From Bacteroidales bacterium (lineage in GTDB: Bacteria; Bacteroidota; Bacteroidia; Bacteroidales; GCA-2748055): a stretch of DNA of 22,666 nucleotides. Shown in pieces: positions 13,090-22,666 of this stretch. The notes under the pieces are model-generated. The model saw nothing but the letters and a program-made list of their open reading frames with translations, was not told where the DNA came from and did not search any database. Each line of letters begins with the position of its first letter. Position 1 is the first letter of the stretch. A program made the position numbers and the translations under genes. Location of the stretch: assembly GCA_029934875.1 (NCBI GenBank), contig JAOZLK010000005.1:1-22666 (forward strand), in the 5' to 3' direction.

Positions 13090-14406
13090 CTATTTATTAA
13101 ATAATCCAATAACGTCGTTCAAATTTGCATAGAGCAGTAGGGCCAGCAGGAGAACCATTCCCACAATCTGTGCATACTCCAGGAACTTATCCCCCGGTTT
13201 GCGTCCACTAACCATTTCAAAGAGGGTAAACATTACATGCCCGCCATCCAGTGCTGGAATAGGAAGTATATTCATAACAGCCAGTATAATAGAAAGGAAA
13301 GCTGTCATATTCCAGAAGCTCTGCCAGTCCCATACCGGCGGGAAGATGCTACCGATTTTAATAAATCCACCAAGCTCTTCATAAGCTTTGGTTTTGGGCT
13401 TAAACAGCATCTTAAGTTGCTTCAGATAACTCTTGGTGATGTTTACACCATGCTTTATGCCGGCAGGAATTGATTGGAAAAAGGTGTATTTAATGATCAC
13501 CGGCTCGAAAATCTCAAACTGCTGAACATTTTGAAACCCAAACATCCCCTCAGCACTGGTGGTCACCTGCATATTTAATGTATCCCTTCCACGTAAAATA
13601 CCCAGATCGAAACCGGCATTCTTTTCACGATTGGTGGCTGCAACAAACTGATAATAGTAATCCACTGAAGTTCCGTTCACCGAAATTATCCGGTCTCCCT
13701 CCTGCCCTCCGGCATCCTTTAAAGAGCCATCAACAAGTTTTGATATTTCGCAGGGTACAATGGGTTCCATGGCATATTCAACCTTAAGCAGGCTGGCGGT
13801 CATCTCAGCAGGCACCTTGATGTCCATATATTCACCATCACGCTTAACTGAAATAACCTGGGTGTTGTTGACCACGATATCATGGTGGATGGTTCGCCAT
13901 TTCTCTACAGTAACTCCGTCAAGGGCCAGAATATGATCTCCATCGCGAAGCCCCATCTCATGAAAGGTATCCTCAAACCTGAGGCCGTAGTCGAGGCGAT
14001 CGGCCGGAACATAGGATTCACCCCATACAAAAAGAACTATGGTATAAATAAAAAGAGCAAGAATGAAATTGACCAGCACACCACCCAGCATGATCAATAA
14101 TCGTTGCCATGCAGGCTTCGACCTGAATTCATAGGGCTTCGGAGGTTGCTTCATCTGCTCCTTATCCATGGATTCATCGATCATTCCACTGATCTTTACA
14201 TAACCTCCCAGGGGAAGCCATCCAATCCCGTATTCAGTATCCCCTATTTTCTTCTTGAATAAGGAAAACCCAGCATCAAAAAAGAGATAGAATTTCTCTA
14301 CCCTGACCTTAAACAGACGGGCAATTAAGAAATGGCCCATCTCGTGTAATATGATAAGAATCGACAAACTCAAGAGTAGTTGAGCGATTCTGATTAAAAC
14401 ATCCAT
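13090..14406 (-). CDS. rseP: RIP site-2 metalloprotease RseP
   Basis: This inner-membrane zinc protease cleaves transmembrane anti-sigma factors and leftover signal peptides. The 438-residue protein has the zinc motif HEMGH at residues 21-25 in the first helix and the third zinc ligand in NILPIPALDGGH (D387) in a late helix. Between them are two PDZ-like regions, one around GLRDGDHILALDGVTVEKW and one around GQEGDRIISVNGTSVDYYYQF. Membrane helices fall near residues 1-20, 95-120, 365-390 and 412-430. It starts one base after the dxr stop, so the genes are one transcription unit, an arrangement common in Bacteroidota. The regulated anti-sigma factor is not in this window. Confidence 0.96.
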   Translation of the reverse strand: MDVLIRIAQLLLSLSILIILHEMGHFLIARLFKVRVEKFYLFFDAGFSLFKKKIGDTEYGIGWLPLGGYVKISGMIDESMDKEQMKQPPKPYEFRSKPAWQRLLIMLGGVLVNFILALFIYTIVLFVWGESYVPADRLDYGLRFEDTFHEMGLRDGDHILALDGVTVEKWRTIHHDIVVNNTQVISVKRDGEYMDIKVPAEMTASLLKVEYAMEPIVPCEISKLVDGSLKDAGGQEGDRIISVNGTSVDYYYQFVAATNREKNAGFDLGILRGRDTLNMQVTTSAEGMFGFQNVQQFEIFEPVIIKYTFFQSIPAGIKHGVNITKSYLKQLKMLFKPKTKAYEELGGFIKIGSIFPPVWDWQSFWNMTAFLSIILAVMNILPIPALDGGHVMFTLFEMVSGRKPGDKFLEYAQIVGMVLLLALLLYANLNDVIGLFNK

Positions 14407-14407
14407 T

Positions 14408-15562
14408 TTATTTAATTAATTCATGTGCGACCCGCCTGGCCTCCAGGTCTGTTTCAAAATAGTCATCCAGGTTGGGATTCTTGATAAAAAAGGACCTACC
14501 CAGCGTACGCTCTATCAGATCTGGAATATCCATAAATCCGATTCTTTTCTCAAGGAATGCATCCACCGCTACCTCATTGGCAGCATTCAGGATGCAGGGC
14601 CAGTTACCACCTTTTCCCAGCGCTTCATAAGAAAGTGCAAGATTACGAAAAATTTTCGTATCCGGCAGCTCAAAGTTTAGCTGTGGAAAATCGGTAAAAT
14701 TCAATCGTTTAAAATCAGAATTCAGCCTGGCTGGATGCGTGAAGGCATACTGGATAGGATGGCGCATATCGGGCAAGCCCATCTGGGCCTTAATGGATCC
14801 ATCAATAAACTGAACCATGGAATGGATAATCGATTGCGGGTGTACTACAACCTCAATCTGGTCGGGCCGGCATCCAAACAGCCACCGTGCCTCAATTACT
14901 TCAAGGCCTTTATTCATCAGGGTGGCCGAGTCTATGGTAATTTTCGGACCCATACACCAATTGGGATGATTTAGGGCTGCTTCGGGGGTGACATTCGCCA
15001 TTGCGTCCTCCTTCCACCCTCTGAAGGGCCCACCGGAGGCAGTCAGAATCAGCTTCTCAACCGAATACGGTGGCTCACCAGTCAGACACTGAAAAATTGC
15101 AGAATGCTCCGAATCAACAGGAATGATATTCACCTTCTTCTCTCTCGCCTCCTTCATGATCAGTTCGCCGGCAACTACCAGGGTCTCCTTATTGGCCAGG
15201 GCAATGTGCTTTCCGGCACGAATCGCTTCAATGGTTGGCCTCAGCCCGCTGAACCCAACCATGGCTGTGAGCACAAGATCTACTGAGTCAAACCCAATCA
15301 CCTGGTTCATTGCATCAGCTCCACAATATACTTTAACAGGGTGGTCCACAAGTGCATCTCTGACGAGCTTATAATGATCCTCGTTCCGAATAACCACCGC
15401 ATTGGGCTGATGCCGAATACTTTGCTTAATAAGTAAGTCGGCGTTATTCCCGGCTGCCAGAACCTCCACCTCAAAAGCCTCCGGATGGGCTGCGATCACA
15501 TCCAGGGCCTGTGTCCCAATGGATCCGGTTGAGCCAAGTATGGCAATCCGCTTCTTCCCCAT
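14408..15562 (-). CDS. dxr: 1-deoxy-D-xylulose-5-phosphate reductoisomerase
   Basis: The enzyme converts DXP to MEP with NADPH, the committed step of the non-mevalonate isoprenoid pathway. This supplies menaquinone side chains and undecaprenyl carriers. The 384-residue protein has the nucleotide loop GSTGSIG at 10-16, the metal site VDSEHSAIFQ with D150 and E152 at the same numbers as in E. coli, ASGGPFR, the HPNWCMGPKITIDSATLMNKGLEVIEA region with the third metal-binding glutamate, and the conserved C-terminal helical domain. It starts one base after the M23 peptidase stop and ends one base before rseP. No missing residue was seen. Confidence 0.97.
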   Translation of the reverse strand: MGKKRIAILGSTGSIGTQALDVIAAHPEAFEVEVLAAGNNADLLIKQSIRHQPNAVVIRNEDHYKLVRDALVDHPVKVYCGADAMNQVIGFDSVDLVLTAMVGFSGLRPTIEAIRAGKHIALANKETLVVAGELIMKEAREKKVNIIPVDSEHSAIFQCLTGEPPYSVEKLILTASGGPFRGWKEDAMANVTPEAALNHPNWCMGPKITIDSATLMNKGLEVIEARWLFGCRPDQIEVVVHPQSIIHSMVQFIDGSIKAQMGLPDMRHPIQYAFTHPARLNSDFKRLNFTDFPQLNFELPDTKIFRNLALSYEALGKGGNWPCILNAANEVAVDAFLEKRIGFMDIPDLIERTLGRSFFIKNPNLDDYFETDLEARRVAHELIK

Positions 15563-15563
15563 G

Positions 15564-16436
15564 CTAAAATACGATGTAATCCGCCGGATTTAAAGGCGCT
15601 CTATTGTGCCATAACTCAAAATGGAGATGAGGGCCTGTGGTAAGCTCACCTGAATTGCCAACGATGGCTATGGCGTCTCCGGCAACTACTTCCTGACCTA
15701 CCGATTTGAAAAGGGCGGCGTTATGTTTATATACTGATATTAGTTCATTGCCATGCTGGATCTGGATGACATAGCCGGTTTCAAGGGTCCAGGTGGACAT
15801 GATTACTGTCCCGTCAAGGGTAGCGTTCACAACCTCGTCGGGTGCTGCCACCAGGTCGATTCCATAGTGTCCTGCAACGGGATCAAACTCACGGGTTACT
15901 ATGCCGGTAACCGGTGTGAAAAAGTGCATGTTATAGAGATTGAGATTTCCATTTTGGTCTTCCAGAACATTCAGTCTGAATTGTTCTTCAGCTTCAACCT
16001 GGCGCCTGAGCAAGGAATCGTTGGCCGAACGATGGAAGGCAATCTCCTGCTGGTTTGACACTCCCGTGGTATCGTTCATGAAATTTTCGGGGGCCTCACC
16101 GCTAATGATTCTATTGAGATTATCGAAATACTGATCCCTGATGGACTGCTCATACTCAAGGGAATCGAGTTTCATGGCATTAGAGCGAATATGCTGCCGC
16201 ATCGCTGCATCCGGATAACCCGGAATTAATTCCCGGATATCGGTATAGGCAACAAGAGAATACACAATGGCTACCAGCAGAATCACAACTATTCCGGCAA
16301 AAGTAAAGAGATTCAACCTTGTGAGCCTCATGGTACCCACCTCTTCGTAGGTATCCTCATTCAGCAGTACCACCCGGTACTTGTTGGTCAGTTTACGAAG
16401 GAGTTTCCAACGTTTCTTATCTGAATTTTTAATCAT
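15564..16436 (-). CDS. M23 family metallopeptidase, membrane-anchored (LytM type)
   Basis: From the ATG at 16436 the protein has 290 residues: a short cytoplasmic N-terminus, one membrane helix (about 43-64), a coiled linker and a C-terminal LytM/peptidase_M23 domain. Zinc ligands are visible as GHYGID (H190, D194) and the HLH of TGPHLHFELW (H270/H272). H238 in YKHN is also in the expected place. Such enzymes cut peptidoglycan peptide cross-links in the periplasm, or act as regulators when degenerate; here the metal site is intact. A longer start at 16460 is possible, but that codon lies upstream of the inferred transcript start, so I prefer 16436. It heads the M23 - dxr - rseP run with one-base gaps. 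Confidence 0.92.
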   Translation of the reverse strand: MIKNSDKKRWKLLRKLTNKYRVVLLNEDTYEEVGTMRLTRLNLFTFAGIVVILLVAIVYSLVAYTDIRELIPGYPDAAMRQHIRSNAMKLDSLEYEQSIRDQYFDNLNRIISGEAPENFMNDTTGVSNQQEIAFHRSANDSLLRRQVEAEEQFRLNVLEDQNGNLNLYNMHFFTPVTGIVTREFDPVAGHYGIDLVAAPDEVVNATLDGTVIMSTWTLETGYVIQIQHGNELISVYKHNAALFKSVGQEVVAGDAIAIVGNSGELTTGPHLHFELWHNRAPLNPADYIVF

Positions 16437-16457
16437 GGGGTTTGCGCCGTAAGGGCA

Positions 16458-16481
16458 CAAAGATAATAAGAATCCGGATTC
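16458..16481 (-). promoter_or_regulatory. putative promoter of the M23-dxr-rseP operon with a palindrome
   Basis: On the minus strand TATCTTTG (16465-16458) matches TAnnTTTG exactly, 21 bases before the ATG at 16436. Just upstream, GAATCCGGATTC (16470-16481) is a perfect 12-base palindrome in the spacer between the -7 element and the expected -33 position, where a repressor dimer would block polymerase. No clear -33 TTTG is seen. Confidence 0.4.
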
Positions 16482-18804: not shown

Positions 18805-20205
18805 CTATTGAACGGGCCATTGAGCTGCCGACCAGAAAAATTCCCAGTTTGGTCCCCTGAACCAGATTCCAACAACTGTAAATACTACAAGTGCAACAAA
18901 AGAGCAGGTGAATAGAACAAGGGCCCCCATCCTGCTTGATTTTTTTCTGCGCTTTACCATTTCTGCAGCCAGAATAAACAACCCAGCTGTAATGGTGGCC
19001 GGATTTATCAGCAAAACAAACCATTGAGAAATGCCCGGGATCCAGTCTTTCAGCCAGCCAAAACGGATCAATACAAAAAGCTGAAGGACCACAGCGAGAA
19101 GTGCTGCTCCGGCCGACCATAATACCAGTTTTTTGCCTTCATTCCCTGAAAACCATTGCCCCACGTATTCATCCTCCCTGTCCTTATAGGGGATTGAAAA
19201 GAGAAAAACCAGGTAAAGCACAGGTATTAGTAAACCTCCTGCAAAGGCGGAATAGGAAACCAGTTCCTGGATTCCCAAAAAGTACCATGGTGATTTTGCA
19301 GGATTGTCCGGGTGTGCCGGGTTAGCCTGTTCCAGCAGGGGAGCATCGGCAAAAATGGCCACCAGCAAAACCACAGCCACCACTCCAAGCAAAAGAGCCA
19401 GTTCGGTCCACATCAGCACGGGCCAGGCAAGCAATTTATTTTCGGTTCCCCTGTCCTTTAAATAGCGCACCGGTCTGCTCAAACCTCCATCTTTACGGAT
19501 GCGCCAAAAATGAATGGCCATCAACACAATAATGGAGAGAGGCAGAAGAATTACATGCAAGGCAAAAAACCTGGAAAGGGCAGGCTGACCAACACTCTCT
19601 CCTCCGATTAGCATTTTCTTCAGGAAGCCTCCCGGATCAAAAAAGCTTGTGATTCCTATAAGATCGGTCAACTCCCTTGCTGAAGCTGCAATGTTCGAAC
19701 CAATGGTAACCGCCCAATAGGCAAGCTGATCCCAGGGTAAGAGGTAGCCGCTGAAATTACTGAGCAGGACTATGACCATCAGGGCTACACCAATGACCCA
19801 GTTCAATGAACGCTTTCCCAGGTAGGAACCGGTATAAAATACCCTGAGCAGGTGAAGGAATACCACGATCACCATACCCTGTGAGGCCCAACGATGCATA
19901 TTACGGATAATTCGCCCTCCGGGAACCAGGTAAACAATATCTTTCACCGACCGATAAGCGGCCTCCACAGAAGGGGTGTAATAGATTATCAGGATCAGGC
20001 CGGTGAATACCATAATCAGGAAAAGGAAGCCAAGGATGATCCCCAGCCCGAAGGTATAGGTGGGCTTCATGGAATGAACGTGAACACGCGTGGCATGGAT
20101 ATGCAGGAAAAAGTTCCGTGTGATGATCCCTGCTCTTCTTTTTCGGTCCGGATCGCCCGTCCTGTCTGCTGTTGATCGCTCTATATCTTGCTCTTTTGCA
20201 GACAT
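18805..20205 (-). CDS. cytochrome b (full-length cytochrome b/b6 plus C-terminal domain)
   Basis: The 466-residue integral membrane protein is the quinol-oxidising core of a bc-type complex. Haem ligands are H104/H118 (13 residues between) and H217/H232 (14 residues between, the b6-type spacing). GYLLPWDQ (153-160) is conserved, and the Qo-site motif of the PEWY class appears as SPWY (305-308) in KSPWYFLGIQELVSY. The C-terminus ends GIWFRGPNWEFFW, typical of the fused b6/subunit IV proteins. No N-terminal cysteine for a covalent haem ci was seen. The N-terminal 40 residues are charged and His-rich. The gene sits two bases after the Rieske gene and before the octahaem cytochrome. Bacteroidota use menaquinone, so menaquinol is the inferred donor. 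Confidence 0.94.
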   Translation of the reverse strand: MSAKEQDIERSTADRTGDPDRKRRAGIITRNFFLHIHATRVHVHSMKPTYTFGLGIILGFLFLIMVFTGLILIIYYTPSVEAAYRSVKDIVYLVPGGRIIRNMHRWASQGMVIVVFLHLLRVFYTGSYLGKRSLNWVIGVALMVIVLLSNFSGYLLPWDQLAYWAVTIGSNIAASARELTDLIGITSFFDPGGFLKKMLIGGESVGQPALSRFFALHVILLPLSIIVLMAIHFWRIRKDGGLSRPVRYLKDRGTENKLLAWPVLMWTELALLLGVVAVVLLVAIFADAPLLEQANPAHPDNPAKSPWYFLGIQELVSYSAFAGGLLIPVLYLVFLFSIPYKDREDEYVGQWFSGNEGKKLVLWSAGAALLAVVLQLFVLIRFGWLKDWIPGISQWFVLLINPATITAGLFILAAEMVKRRKKSSRMGALVLFTCSFVALVVFTVVGIWFRGPNWEFFWSAAQWPVQ

Positions 20206-20207
20206 TA

Positions 20208-20648
20208 TCAGGTGTTTGTGAATTTCTCGTCAGCCGCTACGGTCTTACCGGGATCAATTAACACCTTTCCATCAGAACTTTTATTCACACTGAACCAGGA
20301 CAAATCCCGAGGGGCTGGCCCTGAAAGGACCTCTCCCTGACTATTGTAGCAGGAACCATGACAGGGACACTCAAAACCATCGGTAGTGCTTTCAAGGGTA
20401 CAACCCAGGTGGGTGCAGATGGCCGTAACCGCCCTTATTCCTTCATGATCTCTGTATACAAAAAGCTTGTGCTCGTCAATATAGGTAAAGGTGTCCACCG
20501 GGAAACGTGCTGAATCCCCCAGGGTGATCCGCCTTTTTTTTCCGGCGATCCTGGGAAAAAACTGGCGAAAATAGCTCAAAGCTGCCACTACTCCGGTGCT
20601 TGCCGCAAGTATCAGAGCCGTTTTATGTAGAAATTGTCTGCGTATCAT
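20208..20648 (-). CDS. Rieske [2Fe-2S] protein of a quinol:cytochrome c reductase
   Basis: The 146-residue protein carries a twin-arginine motif RRQFLHK at its N-terminus and one membrane helix (about 9-28), so it should be Tat-exported and remain anchored. The cluster boxes are CTHLGC (C78, H80, C83) and CPCHGS (C94, C96, H97): C78, H80, C94 and H97 bind the cluster, and C83 and C96 form the disulfide. An extra cysteine follows (C100). The GPAPRDL loop after the second box is typical. It takes electrons from quinol at the Qo site of cytochrome b and hands them to the octahaem cytochrome. First gene of the operon; its 106-base upstream region is shared with a divergent octahaem lipoprotein gene. 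Confidence 0.95.
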   Translation of the reverse strand: MIRRQFLHKTALILAASTGVVAALSYFRQFFPRIAGKKRRITLGDSARFPVDTFTYIDEHKLFVYRDHEGIRAVTAICTHLGCTLESTTDGFECPCHGSCYNSQGEVLSGPAPRDLSWFSVNKSSDGKVLIDPGKTVAADEKFTNT

Positions 20649-20719
20649 TTTTGCGATTCTAAATTATATAGATTCTTTTTGAATAGGGTACTTAAATCCT
20701 GCGATTTCTCTAATTTATA

Positions 20720-20727
20720 TACATTTG
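20720..20727 (+). promoter_or_regulatory. putative -7 element for the octahaem lipoprotein gene
   Basis: TACATTTG matches TAnnTTTG exactly and lies 27 bases before the ATG at 20755. In the opposite direction TAATTTAG, one mismatch from consensus, lies about 15 bases before the Rieske start, so the 106-base spacer probably holds divergent promoters. -33 boxes are not clear. Confidence 0.4.
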
Positions 20728-20754
20728 AAATTAATCATTTCGAGTTATTTAGCC

Positions 20755-22666
20755 ATGAAAGTTGGAGTTATTCCCAAACTACTGTTGACGCTTATTTTAA
20801 TCGCCGCGTCCCTGATTACATTAATAAACTGTAAACGTGATGATTCCGGGAAGAAAAACCTGAACAATGGCATCAGTCCAACAGTCGAGGCCAGGTATGT
20901 GGGTCGGGAAAATTGCAAAGAATGTCACGAGAAAGAATTCAATCTTTTCCAGGGATCGGATCACGACATGGCAATGGACACTGCAATTGAAGAGACCGTC
21001 CTGGGCGATTTCAATAATATTAGCTATACACATTTCGGGATCACCTCCAGGTTTTATAAGGAGGATGGCAAATACATTGTGAATACTGAAGGGCCGGATG
21101 GCTCCATGATTGACTACCAGATTTCATATGTGTTCGGGGTCAGACCTCTCCAGCAATACCTGATTGAATTCCCCGGCGGCAGATACCAGTGCCTGCCCAT
21201 ATGCTGGGATACCAGGCCGGATTCCGTGGGTGGCCAGAGGTGGTATCATATATACCAGGCCGAACGGATTCCTCCTGAGGATGTGCTTCACTGGACAAGG
21301 GTAACTCAGAACTGGAACTACATGTGTGCAGAGTGTCACTCCACCAACCTCAGGAAGAATTACAATTACAGTGAGAAGGCCTATCATACCACCTGGAACG
21401 AGATCGACGTTTCATGCGAGGCCTGCCACGGTCCGGGTTCCGTTCACATTGACTGGGCTCAAAAGGTGGAAAGTGGAAGCAGTCCGGACATCTACCCGGA
21501 TATGGGACTGGTACTAAGACTGATGGATACCGACAACGCTACATGGATCTTTGATCCGGATTCTGTAACGGCCCGCAGATCGGTTCCCAGGCAGTCGGAT
21601 GAACTGGTTCAAATGTGTTCAAGGTGCCATTCCCGGAGGGCTGTTGCAACAGAGGATTACTACCACGGAGGATCACTTTTGAATACCCATTGGCCCTCAC
21701 TCCTGGAGGAGGACCTCTATTTTGCAGACGGACAGATTCAGGACGAAGTTTATGTTTATGCCTCCTTCCTGCAAAGTAAGATGTATAAAGCCGGTGTGGT
21801 TTGTAAAGACTGTCACGAAGCTCACAGTGGAAAAACCTTTGCCCAGGGGAATACTCTCTGCTACCGCTGCCACATGGCCAGCGAATACGGAACGCGCAAG
21901 CACCACTTCCATGATCCAAGCAAGGAGGGAGCAAGCTGTACCGAGTGTCACATGCACGAAAGAACCTACATGGTGGTGGATCCGCGCCGTGATCATAGCA
22001 TTCGGATCCCCAGGCCCGACCTGTCCGACAAACTGGGAACCCCCAATTCCTGCAATCAGTGCCATCCCGAGAAAACGACCAAATGGGCCAGCGACTACCT
22101 TAGAAAATGGTACGGTCAGGATTTACTGGACCAGGAACATTATGGAGAGATTTTCTGGGCAGGCCGGCAACGCTACCCTGAGGCTGAAGAAGGATTGCTC
22201 AGGCTGGCGTCTGATCGGGAGCTTCCTCCCATGGTAAGGGCCAATGCCATCTCCCTGCTTTCAGGGTACAGCAGTCCCTCTACGGCACAATTGCTTTCAT
22301 TGATGATCAATGATTCAAATCCGCTGATCAGGTATGCAACACTGACCGTGGCTCAATACGGAGAAGCAGAATTTATAAGGAACCTGGCTGTTCCAAGGCT
22401 GAGGGACAGTATCAAGCTGGTAAGAATGATGGCGGCAAACTCGCTTACTGCTGTTCCTGGAAATCTGATTCCTGAAGGGTCAAAGGAACTGCTGAACAAG
22501 GTACTGGTAGAGTACAATGCATCTCTGATGATCAATGCCGATCACCCCAGCACCCACCTCAACTTCGGGAACCTTTACCTTAATACCGGCAATTATGAAA
22601 AGGCTGAGGCTTCTTTTAAAGAGGCCATAGATCTTGAGCCAGGCCTGGTGGGGCCCTATATCAACC
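20755..22666 (+). CDS. octahaem cytochrome c lipoprotein with HEAT-like and TPR repeats (partial)
   Basis: The frame is open from ATG 20755 to the window end (637 residues visible, no stop). The N-terminus is a lipoprotein signal with LINC, lipid cysteine C26, followed by K-R-D-D-S, which resembles the Bacteroidota surface-export signal. Eight CXXCH sites are at residues 54, 191, 221, 288, 350, 369, 395 and 433. The opening ENCKECHEKEF and the later SCEACHGPGS resemble cytochrome c554-type and related multihaem proteins. A conserved block, YVFGVRPLQQYLIEFPGG, lies between haems 1 and 2, next to a non-haem cysteine pair (C146, C150). After haem 8 come HEAT-like repeats (about 475-590), and TPR-like HLNFGNLYLNTGNYEKAEASF begins near 600. 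The protein probably sits on the outer membrane, perhaps facing outward, and moves electrons to or from an unknown partner. Divergence from the bc operon suggests a joint role. It is not obviously a nitrite reductase: no CXXCK active-site haem is visible. Confidence 0.9.
   Translation, partial: MKVGVIPKLLLTLILIAASLITLINCKRDDSGKKNLNNGISPTVEARYVGRENCKECHEKEFNLFQGSDHDMAMDTAIEETVLGDFNNISYTHFGITSRFYKEDGKYIVNTEGPDGSMIDYQISYVFGVRPLQQYLIEFPGGRYQCLPICWDTRPDSVGGQRWYHIYQAERIPPEDVLHWTRVTQNWNYMCAECHSTNLRKNYNYSEKAYHTTWNEIDVSCEACHGPGSVHIDWAQKVESGSSPDIYPDMGLVLRLMDTDNATWIFDPDSVTARRSVPRQSDELVQMCSRCHSRRAVATEDYYHGGSLLNTHWPSLLEEDLYFADGQIQDEVYVYASFLQSKMYKAGVVCKDCHEAHSGKTFAQGNTLCYRCHMASEYGTRKHHFHDPSKEGASCTECHMHERTYMVVDPRRDHSIRIPRPDLSDKLGTPNSCNQCHPEKTTKWASDYLRKWYGQDLLDQEHYGEIFWAGRQRYPEAEEGLLRLASDRELPPMVRANAISLLSGYSSPSTAQLLSLMINDSNPLIRYATLTVAQYGEAEFIRNLAVPRLRDSIKLVRMMAANSLTAVPGNLIPEGSKELLNKVLVEYNASLMINADHPSTHLNFGNLYLNTGNYEKAEASFKEAIDLEPGLVGPYIN

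Follow-up and report, generated by a model that had tools for sequence, protein, structure and literature searches.

Where do Rieske/cytochrome b complexes that lack cytochrome c1 or f send their electrons? The question is raised by a 22,666-nucleotide stretch of DNA from a Bacteroidales bacterium (contig JAOZLK010000005.1, assembly GCA_029934875.1), referred to here as the window. Near its end an operon for a Rieske protein, cytochrome b and an octahaem c subunit (the bc operon) lies divergent from a gene for a second octahaem cytochrome with HEAT and tetratricopeptide (TPR) repeats, the octahaem-TPR protein. In this study we show by computation that the octahaem-TPR gene is linked to and co-occurs with bc genes across families, that its product has eight haem sites and that the core is of the OcwA/MccA type with a solenoid after the last haem. 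On gene linkage and fold we base our main claim, held with moderate confidence, that this likely lipoprotein takes up the electrons of the Rieske/cytochrome b/octahaem c complex as its partner and most likely serves as terminal reductase of the chain. The locus comprises:

20755..22665, plus strand: octahaem c-type cytochrome, likely lipoprotein, ending in a HEAT/TPR solenoid; 637 of about 797 residues lie before the 3' truncation
20755..20832, plus strand: putative signal peptide with lipobox-like LINC (by eye); Cys 26 would be mature residue 1
20884..22110, plus strand: haem domain with eight CXXCH and a predicted fold like that of OcwA/MccA; strands lie between haems 1 and 2, at about residues 74-165
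22111..22665, plus strand: HEAT then TPR alpha-solenoid, start only; full-length relatives have it up to the C-terminus
20649..20754: divergent intergenic region, 106 bases, with one TAnnTTTG on the plus strand, which we take to be a -7 type element of Bacteroidota
20208..20648, minus strand: Rieske [2Fe-2S] protein of the divergent bc operon (Pfam/profile matches)
18805..20205, minus strand: cytochrome b, 466 amino acids
16783..18798, minus strand: octahaem c subunit of the bc operon, 671 amino acids, N-terminal membrane anchor (by eye)

Linkage to the bc complex

The earlier note on this DNA had placed the octahaem gene with the bc operon and proposed a co-occurrence check. At the level of the order this check bore the proposal out: among 247 genomes the octahaem-TPR family was found in 23 and cytochrome b in 21, with both in 20 genomes (14 families), the family without cytochrome b in three and cytochrome b without the family in one (Fisher's test, p = 2.8e-25, or 3.3e-27 without the two distant members L140 and L141 at 25-26% identity, relatedness being ignored). 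The bc octahaem c subunit (E <= 1e-25) occurred in seven of the 247 genomes, exactly those with a window-type protein, and the genes were adjacent in all seven. Two weak matches in the window's own genome, L002 and L003, were excluded from the counts. We conclude that the link between the octahaem-TPR gene and the bc complex in this order is real. Since the protein is nearly always found there with the Rieske/cytochrome b complex, it is probably the place to which that complex passes its electrons.

The genomes of the order gave 25 matching places, of which 23 regions were read, leaving out the window's own genome (G000) and a 145-residue fragment (G309:C7). Six regions have the divergent layout, eleven a one-strand layout, four have no bc gene beside the octahaem-TPR gene and two are the distant members. 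In the eleven one-strand loci cytochrome b, Rieske and octahaem-TPR genes lie together, and the stretch read holds no other frame with two or more CXXCH. Members with no adjoining bc gene in readable sequence are L126, L130, L135 (cut) and L136; the genomes of L130 and L136 have cytochrome b on another contig. Upstream sequence is short in L135 (about 400 bases) and L012 (about 200 bases). In a tree of 112 rows the divergent and one-strand layouts form separate clusters, and three layout labels placed on it require 7 changes compared to 23.8 in shuffles, the divergent label including L014 (no Rieske match) and L015 (Rieske only). The Ignavibacteria row L020 falls outside the main divergent cluster, at a fork that is unsure.

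Several loci show peculiarities of their own. A small open reading frame lies between the cytochrome b and Rieske genes of the one-strand loci L134 and L139, and in an Aminicenantes contig two small toxin-antitoxin-like genes (antitoxin/PIN by eye; L016:3894-4573) occupy the same place. The cytochrome b of L127 is split, and the cytochrome b match in the genome of L128 holds one stop; these sequences were used as they stand, without correction. Directly downstream of the octahaem-TPR gene we noted a small outer-membrane beta-barrel (PF13568) in L122:1477-2199 and L123:7293-8087, both of family f64, and in the Ignavibacteria contig a downstream frame with 20 CXXCH (L020:15377-17107).

The octahaem gene and its product

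The octahaem open reading frame starts at ATG 20755 and is coding through 22665 to the window end. Its start (MKVGVIPK...) matches the N-termini of close relatives; an automatic start at TTG 20725 was rejected as out of line with theirs. The window is one entire contig (G000:C9:1-22666) of a draft assembly with 749 contigs, a total of 4.77 Mb and 88% completeness, and the last fifth of the protein is absent because this contig ends there. The nearest relative, P0001, has 797 residues and 95% identity; full-length relatives listed have about 770-800 amino acids. The product has eight CXXCH, at residues 54, 191, 221, 288, 350, 369, 395 and 433, compared to a mean of 0.02 and a maximum of 1 in 5000 shuffles of the protein itself, and Cytochrome_C554, Cytochrome_C7, HEAT_2 and TPR_8 match above the Pfam cut-off. 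The description in the earlier note was thus confirmed: the frame runs past the window edge, its product has a lipobox-like motif and eight CXXCH besides HEAT and TPR repeats, and no stop occurs from 20683 to the window end. Elsewhere in the same genome a weak second match to the haem domain (L002, G000:C126:11054-11380, 26 bits) falls within a 424-codon frame that may encode another multihaem cytochrome.

The bc operon lies on the opposite strand, 106 bases from the octahaem gene, in the order Rieske, cytochrome b, octahaem c subunit. Its c subunit also has eight CXXCH, and the motif appears in no other stop-to-stop frame above 80 codons in the window, so that the 16 c-type haems previously counted at the locus (8 + 8) stand. 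Rieske, cytochrome b and multihaem c genes are thus found together, which at gene level is the trait of Rieske/cytochrome b complexes with a multihaem c. The bc octahaem c homologue in L123:12446-14467 has seven CXXCH only. Beyond the bc operon, an M23-like peptidase, DXR and RseP (by eye) occupy 13090-16460 of the window, in the same order as in L119 and L120 of the same genus.

The haem domain matches the OcwA/MccA type, with OcwA and the S-layer cytochrome 6qvm as best fold matches of the predicted model. All eight haem sites align with OcwA haems 1-4 and 6-9. The strands at residues 74-165, between the CXXCH at 54 and 191, have their counterpart at 75-156 in OcwA and are common to MccA, as judged by position and not by a separate superposition. 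In the full-length model, secondary structure and domain matches show short helix pairs matching HEAT and TPR after the last haem and no three-helix bundle. The truncated protein missed the cut-off for the GSU2203 decahaem family (NF041028; 52.5 bits against 325).

The lipoprotein signal was judged by pattern and eye, without a signal-peptide program. A Cys stands at the lipobox position in 14 of 14 rows of the window clade (by eye) and the pattern fits there in 12; L016 gives no fit and L020 fits at a different Cys. Asn at lipobox position -1, as in the LINC of the window protein, is not canonical. The window-clade protein likely carries a lipoprotein signal, as far as its sequence tells. In the operon clade the lipobox Cys occurs in one of 15 rows, the other 14 having a membrane anchor without it (by eye).

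The wider family and its sulfatase neighbours

A protein search for the family gave at least 7999 candidates, all at E <= 0.001, with relatives in Bacteroidota, Aminicenantes, Ignavibacteria, Planctomycetota, Acidobacteriota, Pseudomonadota and others. They carry generic names in the lists, such as tetratricopeptide repeat protein, predicted CXXCH cytochrome or multiheme c-type cytochrome. Across 56 aligned members (40-86% identity to the first) none of the eight CXXCH varies; beyond these motifs six His and three Met are present in 56 of 56, one further His in 55 and H384 in 50.

Contig-level relatives were the best 80 of 589 and are biased to close ones. We examined 89 loci, about two thirds of them from Pseudomonadota, going by the titles of their records, and many with cut flanks. 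Besides the window's own, seven have bc genes adjoining the cytochrome (L007, L013-L016, L018 and L020); L087 was not counted, its cytochrome b match being weak (79 bits) and 5.6 kb away. Most loci outside Bacteroidota and its neighbours, many of them with cut flanks, have no bc genes beside the octahaem gene. A family found mostly without the bc operon would speak against the link drawn in the earlier note, and this picture holds for adjoining genes outside Bacteroidota; within the order, in contrast, 20 of the 23 family genomes have cytochrome b.

The commonest neighbours are hydrolases. A sulfatase-family open reading frame lies in the flanks of 36 of the 89 loci, an undercount since the annotated arylsulfatase of L009 was missed by the frame picking, and a HAD hydrolase in 13, the next commonest family reaching 9; Pfam matches were obtained for representatives. 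Sulfatase neighbours were noted at L004-L008, L010, L011, L017, L026, L027, L029, L062, L063, L066, L067, L083, L085 and L091. Relatives in rhizobia, vibrios and methanotrophs adjoin sulfatases. Of the 48 sulfatase frames in all loci read, 20 carry the active site CTAGR instead of CxPxR. In the literature searched we found no published link between the octahaem family and sulfatases. Because most loci outside Bacteroidota and its neighbours show no bc genes beside the octahaem gene and many lie beside sulfatases, the family taken together cannot be described as a conduit bound to bc. It probably has more than one electron donor, and its ancestral role may have been enzymatic rather than conductive.

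Proposed role and alternatives

In the reading that we favour, a partner and terminal reductase of the bc complex, cytochrome b and the Rieske protein would oxidise menaquinol. In the window clade electrons would then pass via the octahaem c subunit, which has a putative membrane anchor and could bridge the periplasm to the lipoprotein, into the octahaem-TPR chain. In the operon clade direct transfer from Rieske is plausible, because the octahaem-TPR protein is the sole multihaem c at the locus. Reduction of the substrate would take place at a single haem, most likely haem 2 as in OcwA and MccA, candidate acceptors being soluble nitrogen or sulfur species or a surface acceptor, and the HEAT/TPR tail might dock the protein on the bc complex or a partner. 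Six of six genomes have a gene for cytochrome c assembly. All six also have haem-copper oxidase family genes (PF00115), and the octahaem chain therefore need not be the sole respiratory option.

The earlier note had proposed a quinol route from cytochrome b through the octahaem subunit to an outer-membrane lipoprotein. The linkage to bc, the likely lipoprotein signal and the OcwA fold agree with this route, whereas surface export, outer-membrane crossing and an insoluble acceptor found no support. As a tentative and doubtful extension, it might be possible that the locus encodes a quinol:acceptor oxidoreductase in which an OcwA/MccA-like octahaem enzyme, its three-helix bundle exchanged for an alpha-solenoid, docks directly on Rieske/cytochrome b and replaces cytochrome c1 in the operon clade. 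In the window lineage the enzyme would have become an outer-membrane lipoprotein, with a second octahaem subunit bridging the gap. If this were true, a proton-motive bc complex would be wired to its own terminal reductase. As 20 of the 21 cytochrome b genomes have the octahaem protein, it offers a testable answer to where complexes without c1 or f send their electrons. The family, which numbers thousands, also joins an OcwA/MccA-type reductase core to a solenoid of a protein-docking kind.

Extracellular electron transfer is a possible function, but we regard it as unlikely that the lipoprotein faces outwards on the outer membrane and hands electrons on to minerals or partner cells. The best fold matches, OcwA (PMC6703420) and 6qvm, are cell-surface cytochromes. 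The lipobox Cys across the window clade and the small beta-barrel gene downstream in L122 and L123 fit such a conduit as well. However, MtrB_PioB (PF11854) gave no match in six genomes, two of them less than 90% complete and no control genome having passed the cut-off. No barrel lies beside the gene in the readable part of loci L119 and L120, Pfam having been applied there to the gene downstream in L119 alone. Among the neighbours, which the earlier note wanted examined, no downstream gene is common to these two same-genus loci as far as they are readable (one is cut). The sulfatase-adjoining relatives belong to rhizobia, vibrios and methanotrophs, which are not known for extracellular electron transfer. 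Finally, the residues after the lipobox Cys (KRDDSG) fit acidic surface-export signals only weakly.

It is similarly improbable, in our judgement, that the protein is a periplasmic redox enzyme tied to sulfatase/hydrolase clusters, for example oxidising or reducing a sulfatase product or a residue of the sulfatase itself, with bc as quinone partner only in Bacteroidota and its neighbours. The frequency of sulfatase and HAD neighbours and the CTAGR sites argue for it, as does L125:3484-10752, where sulfatase, small secreted protein, HAD hydrolase, cytochrome b, Rieske and octahaem-TPR genes follow in one run, in this order and on one strand. On the other hand, the flanks read of 53 of the 89 loci (many cut) show no sulfatase, and in the window-clade loci read sulfatases occur only in L013 and L121, where they have CxPxR and lie past the bc operon. 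The cytochrome and the CTAGR sulfatase are often well separated on plasmids: among the matches listed (best 60 in each of two lists, best place per record) five records occur in both, and in two of the five the distance is at most 4 kb. The reverse flow, with the octahaem protein oxidising a substrate and passing electrons via Rieske/cytochrome b to quinone, is more unlikely still: the direction cannot be read from sequence and HAO, in the same wider fold group, and OcwA lend it some support (see below), but the nearest folds OcwA and MccA are described as reductases and Rieske/b complexes normally oxidise quinol.

Comparison with known systems

No description of the octahaem-TPR family was found in the literature searched, which was mostly judged from search listings, subscription papers lying outside the search. 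The closest relative by fold, OcwA (PDB 6i5b), is a nonahaem cell-surface terminal reductase of Thermincola potens that is also able to oxidise hydroxylamine, HAO belonging to the same wider fold group (PMC6703420). The protein described here differs in having eight haems, with no firm counterpart of the fifth OcwA motif (aligned only in one weak alternative that the program marked as doubtful), and a HEAT/TPR solenoid in the place of the three-helix bundle of OcwA and MccA. Furthermore it is likely a lipoprotein or membrane-anchored, occurs in Gram-negative hosts and, in Bacteroidota, is linked genetically to a bc complex. MccA, the octahaem sulfite reductase of Wolinella (PDB 4rkm), has no solenoid and a low sequence match (E 6.6e-4); the likeness is at fold level.

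Two systems resemble the locus in gene content. For an anammox bacterium the accessible text describes Rieske/cytochrome b complexes with a hexa- or octahaem c, in one case with a further HAO-like octahaem protein (PMC12954380). As there, a multihaem c replaces cytochrome f, and one anammox cluster shares the presence of a second octahaem protein, which in our locus is OcwA/MccA-like with a solenoid. The anammox complexes, as far as that text goes, include an NAD(P) oxidoreductase; none was noticed beside the window locus, whose neighbours were not searched for one. In Caldithrix abyssi a Rieske/cytochrome b pair lies beside the octahaem nitrite reductase eHao and has been proposed to feed it (PMC5317091). 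The accessible account shows, like our locus, a Rieske/b pair without monohaem c nearby that adjoins an octahaem terminal reductase, but there the enzyme is of the eHao family with a Nap cluster, and the described locus has no such solenoid protein. In conclusion, the locus differs from the anammox and Caldithrix cases in its other octahaem enzyme, in the solenoid and in the lipoprotein or anchored form.
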